A stretch of DNA of 43,621 nt from Lachnospiraceae bacterium. Its GTDB lineage: Bacteria > Bacillota > Clostridia > Lachnospirales > Lachnospiraceae. Made by a program: the position numbers and the translations under genes. The notes beneath the pieces were generated by a model that searched no databases, was not told the DNA's origin, and was given only the letters and a program-made list of their open reading frames with translations. Positions 18,985 to 24,349 of this stretch are shown one piece after another (within the stretch, counting starts at the first letter, position 1; every line of letters starts with the position of its first letter). The stretch is from contig JAJQFO010000178.1 of assembly GCA_021201095.1 (NCBI GenBank), positions 1-43,621 on the forward strand. The letters are read 5' to 3'.

Positions 18985-19165
18985 TTCCTCGTCCGCCTCT
19001 TAAGCAGACGGTACATTCCTTACCTTCCACTCGTCCGCCGCCTGACAGGCGATATGTTCTTTCCATAATTATAGCCATAACCGCTCACCCGCCCGTCTGA
19101 GCAGACGGCACACTCTTTTTTCAATATAACGGTTCACCCATCAGCCTGAGCAGACGGCACTATCC
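18985..19165. repeat. About 49-bp degenerate tandem repeat upstream of mrp
   Basis: Roughly four units, each with a small hairpin such as CCGTCTGAGCAGACGG and a following CGGCACACT-like segment. Units beginning ATAACCGCTCACCC (19077) and ATAACGGTTCACCC (19126) are exactly 49 bp apart; two more diverged units lie nearer mrp. The array fills the mrp 5' region. Confidence 0.65.
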
Positions 19166-19372
19166 CCCGGTTTTGTCCTGCACCGGGAGCAAGGCTGCAA
19201 ACCGCAACGATCGTACCACAGTCTTTCAAGTCTGTCAACCTCTGTTCCTGGCATATGTCAGAAACTCTGTCGCCTGATTTTCTATTACATTCCAGCTATA
19301 CACATCGGCCGTTTCGATCGCAGAAACAGAACACCGCTTCCATTTTTTTCTAATATTTTTCGATTTTTATTG

Positions 19373-19401
19373 TTGACATCGAATTTTAAGCGATGTATAA
19401 T
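19373..19401 (+). promoter_or_regulatory. Consensus promoter with embedded operator for the repressor-polymerase cassette
   Basis: TTGACA, 17-bp spacer, TATAAT: both hexamers are perfect. The inverted repeat ACATCG-N9-CGATGT (19376-19396) overlaps both boxes, so a bound dimer would block RNA polymerase. A weaker version, ACATCG-N7-CGATCG, lies at 19302-19320. Autorepression by the S24 regulator just downstream is the natural reading (inference). Confidence 0.85.
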
Positions 19402-19424
19402 CTGTGCAACACGGAGGAAATGAT

Positions 19425-20285
19425 ATGACATATTACGGGAAAAAAATCGTCCCTTTCACACCCGATGCGCATTCCGGCAGTCCGCGCTTTAATATTACTG
19501 AACTGAAAGAGCACAATGTCATCGGAAAAAAACTGGCCGAAGCCAGAAAAATGAGGAACCTGAGTCAAAAAGATCTCTCCGCAGCGCTTACGGCATACGG
19601 CGCCAGTGTTTCTGCGGGAGCAATCAGCAAATGGGAAAAGGGCGATGCGTTTCCCGGTGTTCTGCAGTTTCTCGCTTTTTGCGACATTTGCCGCATTGAT
19701 CAGATCGGCGAGTTTTTTCTGGGTGAAACCCCGGAGGCCGCAGACTACTCTCCTGAACTAAACCAGAAGGGATTAAAAATCCTCCAGGCTATGAAGGAAG
19801 CCATGATTGCCTCCGGCCAGTATGTGCCTGTATCACGCCGCAGGATCACAAATCTGGCCGAAGAGGTAGAGAAACGGCTCATCCGGGTGAGCAGCAACCT
19901 GGCGTCCGCGGGCACGGGAAGCTTTCTGGACGAAGATCAGTTCACCGAAATACTCTATCCGGTTTCCCAGATCCCGGACGGGACGGATTTCGGCATCCGC
20001 ATCTCGGGAGACAGCATGGAGCCCGTCTATATGGACCGTCAGATTGTCTGGGTCCAGCAGTGCAGCGAGCTGAACCCCGGAGAAGTAGGAATCTTTATCT
20101 GCGACGGGGAAGGTTATATCAAAGAATATCACGAAGAAATGCCGGATAAGAGCGAGTACAGCGAATACTTCTGCGACGGCATCCTGCATCCAAAGATTTC
20201 TCTGATTTCCTATAATAAAAAGTATCCGTCAAAGCAGATATCCCCTTACTGCCGTTTTGAAATCATCGGCCGGGTACTGAATTAA
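19425..20285 (+). CDS. XRE-family repressor with S24 self-cleavage domain (CI/LexA-like)
   Basis: A 286-residue regulator. Residues about 25-80 form an HTH (GKKLAEARKMRNLSQKDLS, then ISKWEKGDAFPGVLQFL). A linker leads to an S24 peptidase domain. The likely cleavage bond is Ala-Gly in LASAGTGSFLDED, the nucleophile is the Ser of ISGDSMEPVYMDRQ, and the general base is the Lys of GYIKEY. All parts needed for RecA-stimulated self-cleavage are present. The ATG has GGAGG 7 nt upstream; a GTG seven codons earlier would precede the predicted transcription start. It is the first gene of a plus-strand cassette ending with polymerase and YolD-like genes, so it probably represses that cassette until DNA damage (inference). 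Neighbouring mrp is divergent. Confidence 0.9.
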   Translation: MTYYGKKIVPFTPDAHSGSPRFNITELKEHNVIGKKLAEARKMRNLSQKDLSAALTAYGASVSAGAISKWEKGDAFPGVLQFLAFCDICRIDQIGEFFLGETPEAADYSPELNQKGLKILQAMKEAMIASGQYVPVSRRRITNLAEEVEKRLIRVSSNLASAGTGSFLDEDQFTEILYPVSQIPDGTDFGIRISGDSMEPVYMDRQIVWVQQCSELNPGEVGIFICDGEGYIKEYHEEMPDKSEYSEYFCDGILHPKISLISYNKKYPSKQISPYCRFEIIGRVLN

Positions 20286-20310
20286 TTTTTACAGGAGGAG
20301 GTGACATTAC

Positions 20311-20613
20311 ATGCATCCAAAAGCGCAGATCCTGCACCCACATAAGGAAAAAGTCTATGTAACGGTCAACTCCGACACCGATGCGACCGGCTACATACAA
20401 CCAAAATCGATCACCTGGCCTGACGGACGCATCTTCCAGATCGAAGAAGTCCGGGACTTTCGGCCGGCAGATACTGTCGGCGGCTGCCTCCTGGGCGATT
20501 GCTACACCGTGGTCATCAAAGGACAACGAAAGCATCTGTTTTATGAAAAAGCCGATGATTACTTTCCCGGCAGACGCGGGAGATGGTTTGTGGAAATCAC
20601 GGCTGCCGGATGA
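20311..20613 (+). CDS. Conserved-looking 100-residue protein of unknown function in the polymerase cassette
   Basis: Starts 25 bp after the repressor gene with AGGAGGAGG and a good ATG. The sequence reads like a compact beta-rich domain: VYVTVNSDTDATGYIQPKSI, TWPDGRIFQIEEVRDFRP, CYTVVIKGQRKHLFYEKAD and a closing GRRGRWFVEIT. No catalytic motif, Cys pair, membrane helix or signal peptide was seen. Small proteins of this general look are, as I recall, often placed between S24 regulators and Y-family polymerases in Clostridia, but I cannot name the family. Possible roles are a polymerase accessory factor or a modulator of the repressor; both are guesses. Confidence 0.75.
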   Translation: MHPKAQILHPHKEKVYVTVNSDTDATGYIQPKSITWPDGRIFQIEEVRDFRPADTVGGCLLGDCYTVVIKGQRKHLFYEKADDYFPGRRGRWFVEITAAG

Positions 20614-20648
20614 TTCACGGCCGGACGGATTCAGGCCAGATACCGTTA

Positions 20649-20774
20649 TCGGTTCGTTTCATTTGCAGCCGGCATCTTCCGTCAGCCTCGACAGAGTTGC
20701 GACCGATGCCTTCCGGCAGCCTCGGCAGAATTGCGGCCGATGCCTTCCGGCAGCCTCGGCAAATCAGAACCGAA
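20649..20774. repeat. 34-bp tandem repeat ahead of the Y-family polymerase
   Basis: Units at 20683-20716 and 20717-20750 are nearly identical (CAGCCTCGRCAGARTTGCG, then CCGATGCCTTCCGG). A third partial unit starts at 20751 and a diverged one precedes 20683. It fills the 203-bp gap between the 100-residue gene and the polymerase. The 34-bp period is not a multiple of three. Confidence 0.8.
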
Positions 20775-20816
20775 CGCAGGCCGTTCTCCCGGCAGGAAAG
20801 GAGCACTCGTTTCACT

Positions 20817-22280
20817 ATGGACAGAACCTATCTCGCCATTGACCTAAAATCTTATTTTGCATCCTGCGAATGTGCAGACCGCCGCATGGATCCGCTGACT
20901 ACTCATCTCGTCGTAGCAGACGAATCCCGGACGGAAAAGACCATCTGTCTCGCCGTGTCCCCATCCCTGAAGGCCTACGGAATCCCCGGACGTGCCCGGC
21001 TGTTTGAGGTAATCCAGGCAGTAGAAAACATCAACGCGGAGCGTCTGCGTGTCCTGCGCCAGATCAGCGCCAACCCCGGCGCCGCATTTTCGTCCTCCTC
21101 TTTTGACGCGGAGGCGCTCTCGAAGGATCCGCGGCTGAAGCTGTCCTACATTGTGGCTCCTCCAAGGATGAAGCGATACGTAGAGACTTCTGCACAGATT
21201 TACTCCATTTATCTGAAATATATCGCCCCGGAAGATATTTTTTCTTATTCCATAGATGAGGTATTTGTCGATGCCACAGCTTACCTGCAGACCTACCATA
21301 TGACCGCGCGCGAACTGTGCATGAGTATGATCCGGGATGTTCTCTATGCTACCGGCATCACGGCCACAGGCGGCATCGGCACAAATCTTTATCTGGCAAA
21401 GATCGCCATGGACATCGTGGCAAAACACGTACCGGCAGATAAGGATGGCGTCCGCATCGCGCAGTTGAACGAATACAGCTACCGCGCAAAGCTGTGGACA
21501 CACACGCCGCTGACGGACTTCTGGCAGGTCGGCCGCGCAACCGCACGCAAGCTGGAAAAGCACTACCTGTATACCATGGGCGACGTGGCCCGGGAAAGTC
21601 TGTCTAACCCGGAATGGTTTTACAGCACCTTCGGCATCAATGCGGAAATCCTCATTGATCACGCATGGGGGATCGAGCCTGTGACCATGGCGCATATCAA
21701 AAATTATAAAGCAGATAATCACAGCCTCACCGAAGGCCAGGTATTGTCCGAGCCCTACGATTTCGACAAAGCCAAAATCATTGTGCGGGAAATGGCAGAC
21801 AGTCTGATACTGCAGCTTACTGAAAAAAGTCTGGTCACAGATCTGCTGACACTGGATATCGCCTATGACCGTGAGAATGTCGATAAAGGCAGAGTATACA
21901 GCGATGTAAAATCTGACCACTATGGACGGCTCGTCCCCAAGCCTGCCCATGGCAGTACCCGGCTTAACTCCCCGACAAACCTCGGCAGCATAATTATTGA
22001 TGCTGTCTCCGGCATTTTTGAAAGCATTGCCGAGCCAGGTCTGACCATCCGGAAAATCAGCATTTCCGCCGGACACCTGTCCGAAGATGACGGATGCTAT
22101 CAGATGGATCTGTTCACCGACACCGCCAAACAGGAACGCGAGCGAAAAATGCAGTCCGCAATGGCTTCCATCAAAAAGCGTTACGGCAAAAATGCCGTTT
22201 TAAAAGGAACCAGCTATCTGGAAGGCGCCACCATGCGCGAGCGGAACGGGCAGATCGGTGGTCACCGAAGCGGCGAATGA
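20817..22280 (+). CDS. Y-family translesion DNA polymerase, UvrX/UmuC-like
   Basis: A 487-residue error-prone polymerase. Palm residues are visible: Asp in TYLAIDLKSYFASCE, then the catalytic pair in FSYSIDEVFVDAT. The little-finger and thumb wording (YATGITATGGIGTNLYLAKI, FWQVGRATARKLEKH) matches the UvrX/UmuC side rather than DinB. YQMDLF near the C-terminus fits a beta-clamp-binding motif, and the tail RYGKNAVLKGTSYLEGATMR is typical of UvrX relatives. The start is placed where homology begins; an open frame continues upstream but overlaps the preceding gene. The GGAG is 13 nt from the ATG, rather far, so translation may be weak. It is third in the cassette, after a 34-bp repeat array. Confidence 0.92.
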   Translation: MDRTYLAIDLKSYFASCECADRRMDPLTTHLVVADESRTEKTICLAVSPSLKAYGIPGRARLFEVIQAVENINAERLRVLRQISANPGAAFSSSSFDAEALSKDPRLKLSYIVAPPRMKRYVETSAQIYSIYLKYIAPEDIFSYSIDEVFVDATAYLQTYHMTARELCMSMIRDVLYATGITATGGIGTNLYLAKIAMDIVAKHVPADKDGVRIAQLNEYSYRAKLWTHTPLTDFWQVGRATARKLEKHYLYTMGDVARESLSNPEWFYSTFGINAEILIDHAWGIEPVTMAHIKNYKADNHSLTEGQVLSEPYDFDKAKIIVREMADSLILQLTEKSLVTDLLTLDIAYDRENVDKGRVYSDVKSDHYGRLVPKPAHGSTRLNSPTNLGSIIIDAVSGIFESIAEPGLTIRKISISAGHLSEDDGCYQMDLFTDTAKQERERKMQSAMASIKKRYGKNAVLKGTSYLEGATMRERNGQIGGHRSGE

Positions 22281-22417
22281 AACAATGCATACATTCAAAA
22301 TCACCCGCCAAAGGCTATTCCGCTGCCAAAATCTGCGCAAAAAGGATTTGTGCTGCCGCCTGGCGGAAAATCAGAATTTTACAAAGCAAAAACAGCTTTA
22401 ACAGCAGAGGGATTCTC

Positions 22418-22981
22418 ATGACAAAAACAACTACACAAGCAGCAATTTTCTCGGCAACAGAAAAGTCATCAGCGGCAGCAGGAGGTTCTGAGACAGAGGC
22501 AGAAGAAAAATACAGGGATATCATCCATTGCTCCTGGCCCGCAGACCCATCCGTCTACCGCAGGCATCCGAAAATGTCTCTTCAGGATCGTGCTAAAATA
22601 TTTGCGCCTTTTGCCGCCCTGAGGGGACACAGTGACCGCCTTTTTGAAGAAACCGGCAGGCTGCTCCGCTCCGCCAGGATCACTCTGTCCGAAGAAGAAT
22701 CCGCAATTCTTTCTGACAAACTCCTGCAGGTCAGAAAGGGGATGAACATCACCGTCCTGTACTTTGAGCCTGACTCCTCCGGTGATGGGACAGGCTATTA
22801 TATCAGCCTGTCAGGTACCGTCTCGGAGCTCGACAACCTGTTCCATTCGATTAAAATAAGCACCGGAGAAATGGGCGAAAAGGGCGAGATCCATCAGGTC
22901 ATTCGCTTCGAGGACCTGGCAGATATCCGTCTTCCTTATGGTTCCGGTGAGGATTCCTTCCCTGCAGATTCACTCCCCTGA
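22418..22981 (+). CDS. YolD-like protein, partner of the Y-family polymerase
   Basis: A 187-residue protein. The YolD core is in the middle: HPKMSLQDRAKIFAPFAALR with GH after it, then a helical part (LFEETGRLLRSARITLSEEE) and a C-terminal beta region (MNITVLYFEPDSSGDGTGYY, EIHQVIRFEDLADIRLP). YolD-like genes usually sit beside uvrX/umuC-type genes in Bacillota, as here. The ATG chosen has an AGAGGG site 7 nt upstream. An in-frame ATG at 22277 overlaps the polymerase stop (ATGA) and would add 47 basic residues, so translational coupling cannot be excluded. Biochemical role is unknown; UmuD-like assistance has been proposed in general terms. Confidence 0.85.
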   Translation: MTKTTTQAAIFSATEKSSAAAGGSETEAEEKYRDIIHCSWPADPSVYRRHPKMSLQDRAKIFAPFAALRGHSDRLFEETGRLLRSARITLSEEESAILSDKLLQVRKGMNITVLYFEPDSSGDGTGYYISLSGTVSELDNLFHSIKISTGEMGEKGEIHQVIRFEDLADIRLPYGSGEDSFPADSLP

Positions 22982-23040
22982 TATTTCAGCGCAATTCTCA
23001 CTTGCATAATCGGAGCAGTTGCGTTATATTTTACAAAGCA

Positions 23041-23062
23041 CCGCGAGGACTCAGCCTCGCGG
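23041..23062. other. GC-rich hairpin between the YolD-like gene and argG
   Basis: Perfect 8-bp stem CCGCGAGG-ACTCAG-CCTCGCGG without a following T-run. It may close the cassette transcript or act in the argG leader. The 140-bp leader is too short for a T box. Confidence 0.45.
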
Positions 23063-23125
23063 GAAACGGTTTCAGAGTAAAACGGCTGCTGCCGTTTACG
23101 ATAAAAAACGGAGGAGGAAAAACTT

Positions 23126-24349
23126 ATGAAAGAAAAAGTAGTTCTGGCGTATTCAGGCGGGCTTGATACGACCGCGATCATCCCGTGGCTAAAGGAGAAT
23201 TTTGACTACGACGTAGTATGCTGCTGCATCGACGTCGGACAGGGCAACGAGCTGGACGGCCTCGACGAACGGGCGAAGCTCTCCGGCGCTTCCAAGCTAT
23301 ATATTGAAAATATTGTTGATGAGTTCTGTGATGATTTTGTTATGCCATGTGTAAAGGCAGGCGCCGTATATGAGCACAAATATCTGCTCGGCACCTCAAT
23401 GGCACGTCCGGCAATTGTGAAAAAGCTGGTCGAAATCGCACGCAAGGAAAACGCGGTGGCGATCTGCCACGGCGCAACCGGCAAGGGAAATGACCAGATC
23501 CGTTTCGAGCTGGGGATCAAGGCTCTCGCTCCGGATATCAAAATCATCGCTCCGTGGAGAATGACAGATGTATGGACGATGCAGTCCCGTGAGGACGAGA
23601 TTGCCTACTGTGAGCAGCACGGCATCCATCTCCCATTTTCACAGGATTCAAGCTATAGCCGCGACCGCAATCTCTGGCACATCAGCCATGAGGGTCTGGA
23701 GCTGGAAGATCCGGCCAACGAGCCGAACTATGACCACATGCTGGTACTCGGCGTGACACCGGAAAAAGCGCCGGATCAGGGCGAATATGTGACCATGACC
23801 TTTGAGGCGGGCATTCCGAAGACCCTGAATGGCCGTGAAATGAAAGTATCTGAGATTATTACAGAGCTGAACGCACTCGGCGGCAAGCACGGCATCGGCA
23901 TTGTGGACATCGTGGAAAACCGTGTAGTCGGTATGAAGTCCCGCGGTGTCTATGAAACCCCCGGCGGCACAATCCTGATGGCTGCACACGAGCAGCTGGA
24001 AGAACTGATTCTTGACCGCGAAACGCTGGAGACCAAGAAAAAGCTGGGCAGCCAGTTTGCACAGGTCGTCTATGAGGGCAAATGGTTCACACCGCTGCGC
24101 GAGGCCATTCAAGCGTTCGTCGATGTGACGCAGGAAAATGTAACTGGCGAAGTGAAATTCAAGCTCTACAAGGGCAACATCATCAAGGCCGGGACGACCT
24201 CTCCTTATTCTCTGTACAACGAATCCCTGGCTTCCTTCACGACCGGCGATCTCTACGATCACCACGACGCAAGCGGCTTCATTACCCTGTTTGGACTGCC
24301 GCTGAAGGTGCGCGCGATGAAAAAGGCAGAACTGGAAAACAAGAAATAA
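23126..24349 (+). CDS. argG: Argininosuccinate synthase
   Basis: Joins citrulline and aspartate with ATP to argininosuccinate, the penultimate step of arginine synthesis. The 407-residue protein starts [20 protein letters not shown] with the N-type ATP loop YSGGLDT. Further family blocks are [66 protein letters not shown] with YETPGG following, and a closing [14 protein letters not shown]. Length is normal. GGAGGAGG precedes the ATG. argH is not adjacent on the right; an unusual long-loop terminator follows, so argG appears to be monocistronic. Confidence 0.97.

Follow-up and report, generated by a model that had tools for sequence, protein, structure and literature searches.

A probable privately repressed translesion-synthesis cassette in a Lachnospiraceae genome, with an ImuB-C-like small protein and relatives that appear to exchange damage switches

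The window analysed here is a contig stretch of 43.6 kb from a Lachnospiraceae bacterium whose assembly (4.83 Mb, 362 contigs) is 99.4% complete and 5.35% contaminated. It holds a cassette of four plus-strand genes encoding a repressor with S24 and helix-turn-helix (HTH) parts, a protein of 100 amino acids (aa), a Y-family DNA polymerase and a 187-aa protein. As an earlier sequence-only reading of the same stretch had described, the cassette lies between a minus-strand Mrp-type gene, whose matches stay below curated cut-offs, and the plus-strand argininosuccinate synthase gene argG. The features of the cassette, with lengths of non-coding elements in nucleotides (nt), are as follows.

19359..19383, plus strand: second candidate half-site pair, TTCGAT-N13-ATCGAA, overlapping the −35 hexamer; possible additional operator
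19373..19401, plus strand: promoter TTGACA-17-TATAAT, matching the consensus at 12/12 positions
19376..19396, plus strand: candidate operator ACATCG-N9-CGATGT, with perfect 6-nt arms, covering the −35 end, the spacer and the −10 start
19425..20285, plus strand: S24 self-cleaving-type repressor (HdiR-like) with a cI/XRE-type HTH, 286 aa; the open reading frame (ORF) opens at GTG 19404
20311..20613, plus strand: small protein, apparently divergent ImuB-C/DUF6504-like, predicted beta-strand, 100 aa
20663..20764, plus strand: three 34-nt direct repeats between the small-protein and polymerase genes
20817..22280, plus strand: UvrX-like Y-family polymerase, 487 aa, with catalytic, QMDLF clamp and RecA-N-terminus-like motifs and a QIGGH tail
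22418..22981, plus strand: YolD-like accessory protein, 187 aa, placed in its family through its relatives and not by its own score

The repressor matches PF00717 (E 3.2e-15) and HTH_3 (E 6.5e-5). The HTH, the Ala-Gly bond and the Ser and Lys of S24 self-cleavage noticed in the sequence-only reading are all there, as A162-G163, S197 and K233, and the spacings between them (35 from A-G to S, 36 from S to K) are LexA-like; the same spacings are kept in G066, G062, L046 and G019. A PDB sequence search with the repressor returned no match at E 0.001, and a scan of viral contigs gave two matches restricted to the HTH part. Close relatives are rare: across 392 genomes of the order, two have one at E 1e-40 or better, and the window's genome is one of the two. 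At E 1e-25 or better they occur in 30 of 397 family genomes, again counting our own, the other 29 being 34–47% identical. A polymerase ORF adjoins the S24 gene in 16 of these 29 loci (L118–L146), divergently in 15 of the 16, so that S24-gated polymerases recur in this group. One relative (L046:2132-3626, minus strand) has, next to its S24-led cassette, an XRE-like ORF together with one of 244 aa that contains HECAH, possibly a second protease–repressor pair.

The polymerase matches PF00817 (E 2.5e-23). Its AIDLK (at 7), SIDE (at 145) and QMDLF (at 429) motifs bear out the catalytic acids and the clamp motif (YQMDLF) that had been read from the sequence, and it ends in a QIGGH tail. Matches to phrog_1268 (E 8.3e-67) and to PRK03103 (E 2.3e-49, but below that model's cut-off) make it a candidate member of the UvrX/YqjW group. 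A feature that the earlier reading had not mentioned lies after the clamp motif: residues ~436–463 align to the N terminus of the RecA of the same genome with a score of 58, which none of 1000 shuffles of the tail reaches (maximum 49). Such a RecA-N-terminus-like feature is described for UvrX-type enzymes by Timinskas and Venclovas (PMC6511836). The fourth protein on its own has no Pfam or NCBIfam match at E 0.1; however, 22 of the 34 aligned members of its family match PF08863 (YolD) at E 0.01 or better. Its description as YolD-like thus holds at the level of the family and not of the single sequence.

The promoter is the sole 12/12 site among five promoter-like sites in a scan of 19000–23200, and position 19373, at which the sequence-only reading had begun the cassette, is the first base of its −35 hexamer. 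That reading had not noted the palindrome within the promoter spacer. Its exact form, ACATCG-N9-CGATGT, occurs once in the whole 4.83 Mb assembly, at this promoter. With up to one mismatch the pattern is found in 11 places, against three for the reversed pattern; all ten one-mismatch places fall within open frames of at least 100 codons, and only the promoter copy lies outside them, on a strong promoter. Related sequence is present at the S24 promoters of G066, G062, L046 and G272: both arms are intact in G066, where three spacer bases differ, and in G272 the sequence flanks both sides of a divergent relative. The second half-site pair, TTCGAT/ATCGAA, is also found in G066, and in G062 with 12-nt spacing. 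The HdiR operator consensus quoted in PMC1592510, tttATCAGtTtttCTGATaaa, is a palindrome of the same build as our candidate. Further upstream of the cassette promoter, at 19244–19265, there is an imperfect palindrome, GTTCCTGGCATATG/CATATGTCAGAAAC.

No exact LexA box (GAACNNNNGTTC) exists within the whole window and hence none in the cassette promoter, in keeping with the earlier remark that no LexA-type box was seen there. One-mismatch matches lie just upstream of the cassette at 19236 and 19329; window-wide there are seven, against a chance mean of 15.45, so that they are rarer than expected. The genome does encode LexA: two homologues exceed the curated cut-off, on contigs C11 and C76, the latter with an exact GAACATATGTTC at its own promoter, and the contamination of the assembly may explain one of the two. 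An exact GAACATAAGTTC stands just before recA, which is apparently LexA-boxed. Since LexA and a boxed recA are present and the cassette has no exact box, it looks separated from the existing LexA system.

A search of genomes for the four-gene order, which the sequence-only reading had proposed as a check, finds the identical order with identical flanks in two other species of the genus, G066 and G062. Relative to the window, the repressor is 86–87%, the small protein 91–94%, the polymerase 91–92% and the fourth protein 71–74% identical there, and the flanking mrp and argG products are 94–100% identical. Conservation of the order across three species is more than chance. We located argG in 43 of 47 genus genomes and read 30 of those 43 loci; the cassette adjoins argG only in the window, G066 and G062, and no simple empty mrp–argG site was seen among the 30. 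Because these chromosomal flanks are conserved, we did not retain the idea of a phage or plasmid as the carrier of the cassette here.

The 100-aa protein had been left without an assignment in the sequence-only reading. Searches of Pfam, NCBIfam and PHROG with the single sequence gave nothing useful. An alignment of 44 family members nevertheless has a tryptophan (W92) invariant in all 44 and the pattern P..W.GR...I..V...Y.V...G...L..E...RW. Compared by hhalign with a DUF6504 profile built from 28 of 30 fetched loci (two at contig edges were omitted), the family profile gives a probability of 71% and a score of 30.9; 200 column shuffles reach at most 21.1 and the reversed profile 12.8, and the YolD profile, as a control, gives a probability of 0.9% and a score of 16.3. 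Separate halves of the family both match DUF6504, with scores of 28.0 and 29.4. We take DUF6504 to be the Pfam name of the ImuB-C domain. The structure model is all beta except for one short helix (mean predicted local distance difference test score, pLDDT, 76.8; predicted template-modelling score, pTM, 0.63), and a fold search with it returned no match at E ≤0.001 (best in the PDB, E 0.38). Judged by these profile comparisons, the small protein appears distantly related to the ImuB-C mutasome domain. The window protein itself has no DUF6504 match and so stays below the curated cut-off of PF20114. Of 398 genomes of the phylum, 95 match the DUF6504 model; the genome that holds the window is not among them.

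In some sister species the small-protein gene stands alone, away from any polymerase, behind LexA-type boxes: two exact boxes precede the copy at L185 and AAACATATGTTC, with one mismatch, each of those at L186–L190, while the stretch scanned at L191 has none. At L042 the gene follows the polymerase and has its own exact LexA-type box upstream. Because such boxes precede standalone copies, the small protein resembles an SOS gene that stands on its own. A shorter relative follows polymerases of this kind, next to S24 genes, in several loci. Two uncharacterised siphovirus proteins in BFVD, A0A8S5PG70 and A0A8S5MNL1, resemble the small-protein model (probability 1.00; E 0.009 and 0.053, respectively), a hint of phage-borne copies.

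How related polymerases are controlled was surveyed in loci picked by similarity to the window proteins (in the genome scan, the best 80 of 592), so that the counts describe this sample and not nature. Removal of duplicates brought an initial 150 polymerase ORFs down to 136 and then to 125, of which the 124 with at least 150 nt upstream serve for the counts of LexA boxes; the set for control types was chosen anew (longer loci, E below 1e-100, more than 400 aa) and also numbers 125. XRE and M78 genes were identified by Pfam for selected members and otherwise by profiles from few seeds. The small protein lies upstream of the polymerase in 28 of the 125 distinct relatives. Eight of these 28 cassettes have an S24 gene, eight an XRE gene with an M78 (ImmA/IrrE-type) metallopeptidase gene and seven a LexA-type box with at most one mismatch, and five have none of these or too little sequence. 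The 97 polymerases without the small protein upstream divide into two with S24, four with XRE–M78 (one of them in the window's own genome), 22 with a box and 69 with neither or with too little sequence.

Of the 113 rows with 1.2 kb or more upstream, a private regulator is present in 16 of 27 that have the small protein and in 5 of 86 that lack it (Fisher p 1.3e-8, with related rows that are not independent). Allowing one mismatch, LexA boxes stand before 7 of the 12 small-protein cassettes that lack a private regulator and before 1 of the 16 that have one (Fisher p 0.004). Polymerases with neither small protein nor private regulator have such a box in 22 of 90 cases, and control windows in 232 of 2500; pooled over all cassettes, the figures are 29/102 without and 1/22 with a private regulator (p 0.015). 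Exact boxes occur in 3/12 and 10/90 of those without and in none of the 22 with a private regulator (controls 32/2500). The three small-protein cassettes with exact boxes come from sister species (G008, G013 and G014; polymerase 77% identical). The arrangement in the window is one of at least three alternative types of control for this cassette, a LexA box, an S24 repressor or an XRE–M78 pair, and in the window's lineage the predicted S24 switch stands where sister species have a putative LexA box. Where 2.7 kb was available on both sides (70 loci), S24 genes lie upstream in 8 and M78 genes in 9, and downstream in none.

Mapped on a polymerase tree (a quick tree without bootstrap, 52 of the 125 rows, 33 with a control label), the control types need at least 11 changes among the 33 labelled rows. 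Omitting doubtful S24 rows (L108, with S24 two genes away; L071, LexA-like; L127, on a long branch) leaves 10 changes in 30, a smaller set with exact boxes only gives 6 in 20, and S24 against M78 alone, in small-protein cassettes plus L046, 4 in 15. These counts suggest several changes in the kind of damage switch that the cassette carries. In our view this apparent exchange of control types is the most interesting result, and it rests on a similarity-chosen sample.

A second UvrX-like polymerase, with a YolD gene, lies on contig C196 of the same genome (L035/L210, 3–2733), divergent from an XRE and M78 pair; the shared promoter region carries TTCGTAT/ATACGAA repeats, and G014, G017 and G032 have the same arrangement. 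A TetR gene precedes the polymerase in five sister loci (L038, L040, L007, L010 and L013), which share a AATATCTCTCC-like element near the polymerase start; no LexA-type match was found in the 330 nt upstream of each of these five. We considered the TetR gene as a candidate for yet another kind of switch.

Taking repressor, promoter and gene order together, we consider it probable that the cassette is an autoregulated translesion-synthesis operon under a private S24 repressor. The repressor would bind the palindrome in its own promoter and keep the four genes low. DNA damage would load RecA on single-stranded DNA, and the filament would stimulate repressor self-cleavage at A162-G163 through S197 and K233. 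With the promoter open, the UvrX-like polymerase would be made together with two partners, the YolD-like protein as a UmuD analogue and the ImuB-C-like protein; with QMDLF as its contact to the beta clamp and the RecA-like tail as its contact to RecA, the polymerase would bypass lesions at the cost of mutations. We infer cleavage, operator binding, co-transcription, complex formation and mutagenesis from known families. The sequence-only reading had proposed a private damage switch separate from LexA. The cleavable-type repressor at the head of the genes, the unique candidate operator and the missing exact LexA box fit that proposal, but the arrangement is not new, HdiR being a precedent. The separation, moreover, would be from LexA and not from RecA, whose filaments by analogy would trigger both.

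Several points weigh against this picture or temper its parts. Shuffling the 29-nt promoter yields arms of at least 6 nt 81 times in 2000, so that the palindrome alone is weak and only mildly unusual, and the right arm has decayed in G062 and L046; although its exact form is unique and relatives have similar sequence, it is for us a candidate operator and no more. A single transcript for the cassette is uncertain because of the gaps of 203 nt (small protein to polymerase) and 137 nt (polymerase to fourth gene) and a weak plus-strand terminator-like stem at 20563–20583 (nine terminator-like sites were found against 5.0 expected). Single-sequence matches to DUF6504 decide nothing about the small protein, since other families score equally or better: a match at E 5 or better is seen for 4 of the 44 sequences, the best at E 0.04 and below the Pfam cut-off, and a proteasome signature appears in four members with a best E of 0.0011. 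In the survey of relatives, a one-mismatch LexA box arises by chance in ~9% of windows, about one in eleven. Lastly, the tree requires 20 changes for the five label groups together, whereas shuffled labels average 30.6 and come as low in none of 200 shuffles; because labels are clustered in this way, a control type seems to be inherited for a time and then to change, repeatedly but not freely.

The trigger of the repressor need not be RecA, since the LexA-like IrvR of Streptococcus mutans is reported as an exception to RecA control (PMC7101444); HdiR in addition needs Clp processing and responds to heat (PMC8565304). The S24 repressor could then sense heat, proteolysis or another stress and drive stress-induced mutagenesis that is not tied to DNA damage. 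We think this unlikely, given that the full cleavage geometry is retained and that the regulated genes are translesion genes; the sister cassettes and standalone small-protein genes behind LexA-type boxes suggest that the inherited logic is damage control.

It is also conceivable that the repressor came from a phage or integrative element and was domesticated, that it lies next to the polymerase by chance and that it does not control it; its best PHROG match is indeed a phage repressor family, with the 34–47% identical relatives in 29 other family genomes pointing the same way. Against such chance adjacency stand the gene order kept in three species, the repressor's promoter as the only 12/12 site of the scanned region, the polymerase ORFs adjoining 16 of 29 repressor relatives and the position of S24 genes upstream, never downstream, of polymerases in 70 loci, which together make it improbable. 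No integrase or phage structural gene was recognised among the window ORFs, of which the first 40 residues were inspected, no dedicated search having been made. That a degenerate box still leaves the cassette under LexA, with the S24 gene only fine-tuning, is very improbable: LexA is present and a one-mismatch GAACACCGCTTC lies at 19329–19340, 32 nt before the −35 hexamer, but such matches are rarer than chance in the window and none was seen by eye in the promoter stretches of G066 and G062.

The preferred reading, an operon under its own S24 repressor, follows a known design, since the HdiR–umuC cassette of streptococci likewise places a Y-family polymerase under a self-cleaving repressor of its own. 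Varhimo and colleagues reportedly described in 2007 a four-gene HdiR–umuC operon in Streptococcus uberis, with its four-gene order and gel shifts. In Lactococcus and Streptococcus, HdiR is an S24 repressor triggered by RecA (PMC8565304) that controls a UmuC homologue or a mutagenic cassette only (PMC8565304, PMC3901139). Both that cassette (Savijoki 2003; Varhimo 2007) and the one in the window combine an S24/HTH repressor of self-cleaving type, a UmuC/UvrX-type polymerase and small extra genes; in the window, too, the repressor gene leads a row with the polymerase, behind a single 12/12 promoter, and the palindromic operator, here a candidate, is of similar build. The hosts differ: the window's genome has LexA, whereas Streptococcaceae are reported to lack it (PMC8565304). 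A Streptococcus suis phage cassette, the one annotated example compared, has a repressor 25% and a polymerase 29% identical to ours; unlike the window it has no ImuB-C-like gene, and the YolD match of its 122-aa gene is not specific (E 0.006, compared with 0.01 to an unrelated M78 profile).

The UvrX-like polymerase with its RecA-N-terminus-like motif beside a YolD homologue also resembles the putative UvrX/YqjW–YolD–RecA mutasome (PMC6511836; PMC12926913), to which the window adds the ImuB-C-like gene and the private repressor; the same papers give YolD and ImuB-C as partners of different polymerase groups and describe LexA control. With standalone ImuB-C proteins (DUF6504; PMC3765255) our small protein shares its size, an all-beta build, a place beside Y-family polymerases, a pattern and a late conserved tryptophan, and its family differs in scoring below the Pfam cut-off. 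Aravind and colleagues had already noted ImuB-C on its own in the company of UmuC and YolD, and likewise of DUF955 metallopeptidases (PMC3765255). UmuDAb of Acinetobacter is likewise a LexA-like repressor, other than LexA, over error-prone polymerases (PMC8565304), but it is derived from UmuD, whereas the window repressor is of cI/XRE type. IrrE/DdrO and ImmA/ImmR unite an XRE repressor with an M78 metallopeptidase, like the pairs beside relatives of the cassette and at the second polymerase of the same genome, and unlike the window; XRE–M78-type pairs are described as stress switches (PMC8072749). In the extracts of literature searched for an ImmA/IrrE-gated or ImuB-C-plus-YolD cassette, we found no description of sensor exchange. 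As far as those extracts reach, what is new is the likely assignment of the small protein, together with the apparent exchange of sensors.

We hypothesize that the ImuB-C-like protein, the UvrX-like polymerase and YolD form a portable two-partner mutasome with an interchangeable sensor, and that the window's genome runs LexA, an S24-gated polymerase and an XRE–M78-gated one side by side, with separate thresholds for mutagenesis; to this we give an even chance. Mutagenic polymerases must stay silent until needed, so that a cassette whose sensors change while polymerase and partners are kept is a natural experiment on the evolution of control. Why some bacteria add private switches despite having LexA becomes directly testable. 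A link between the small protein and ImuB-C would join two mutasome designs that the available extracts treat apart and would supply a candidate extra subunit.

As a separate matter of annotation, plasmid records (H21–H34) label polymerases of this group 'DNA methylase', apparently a carried-over misannotation.

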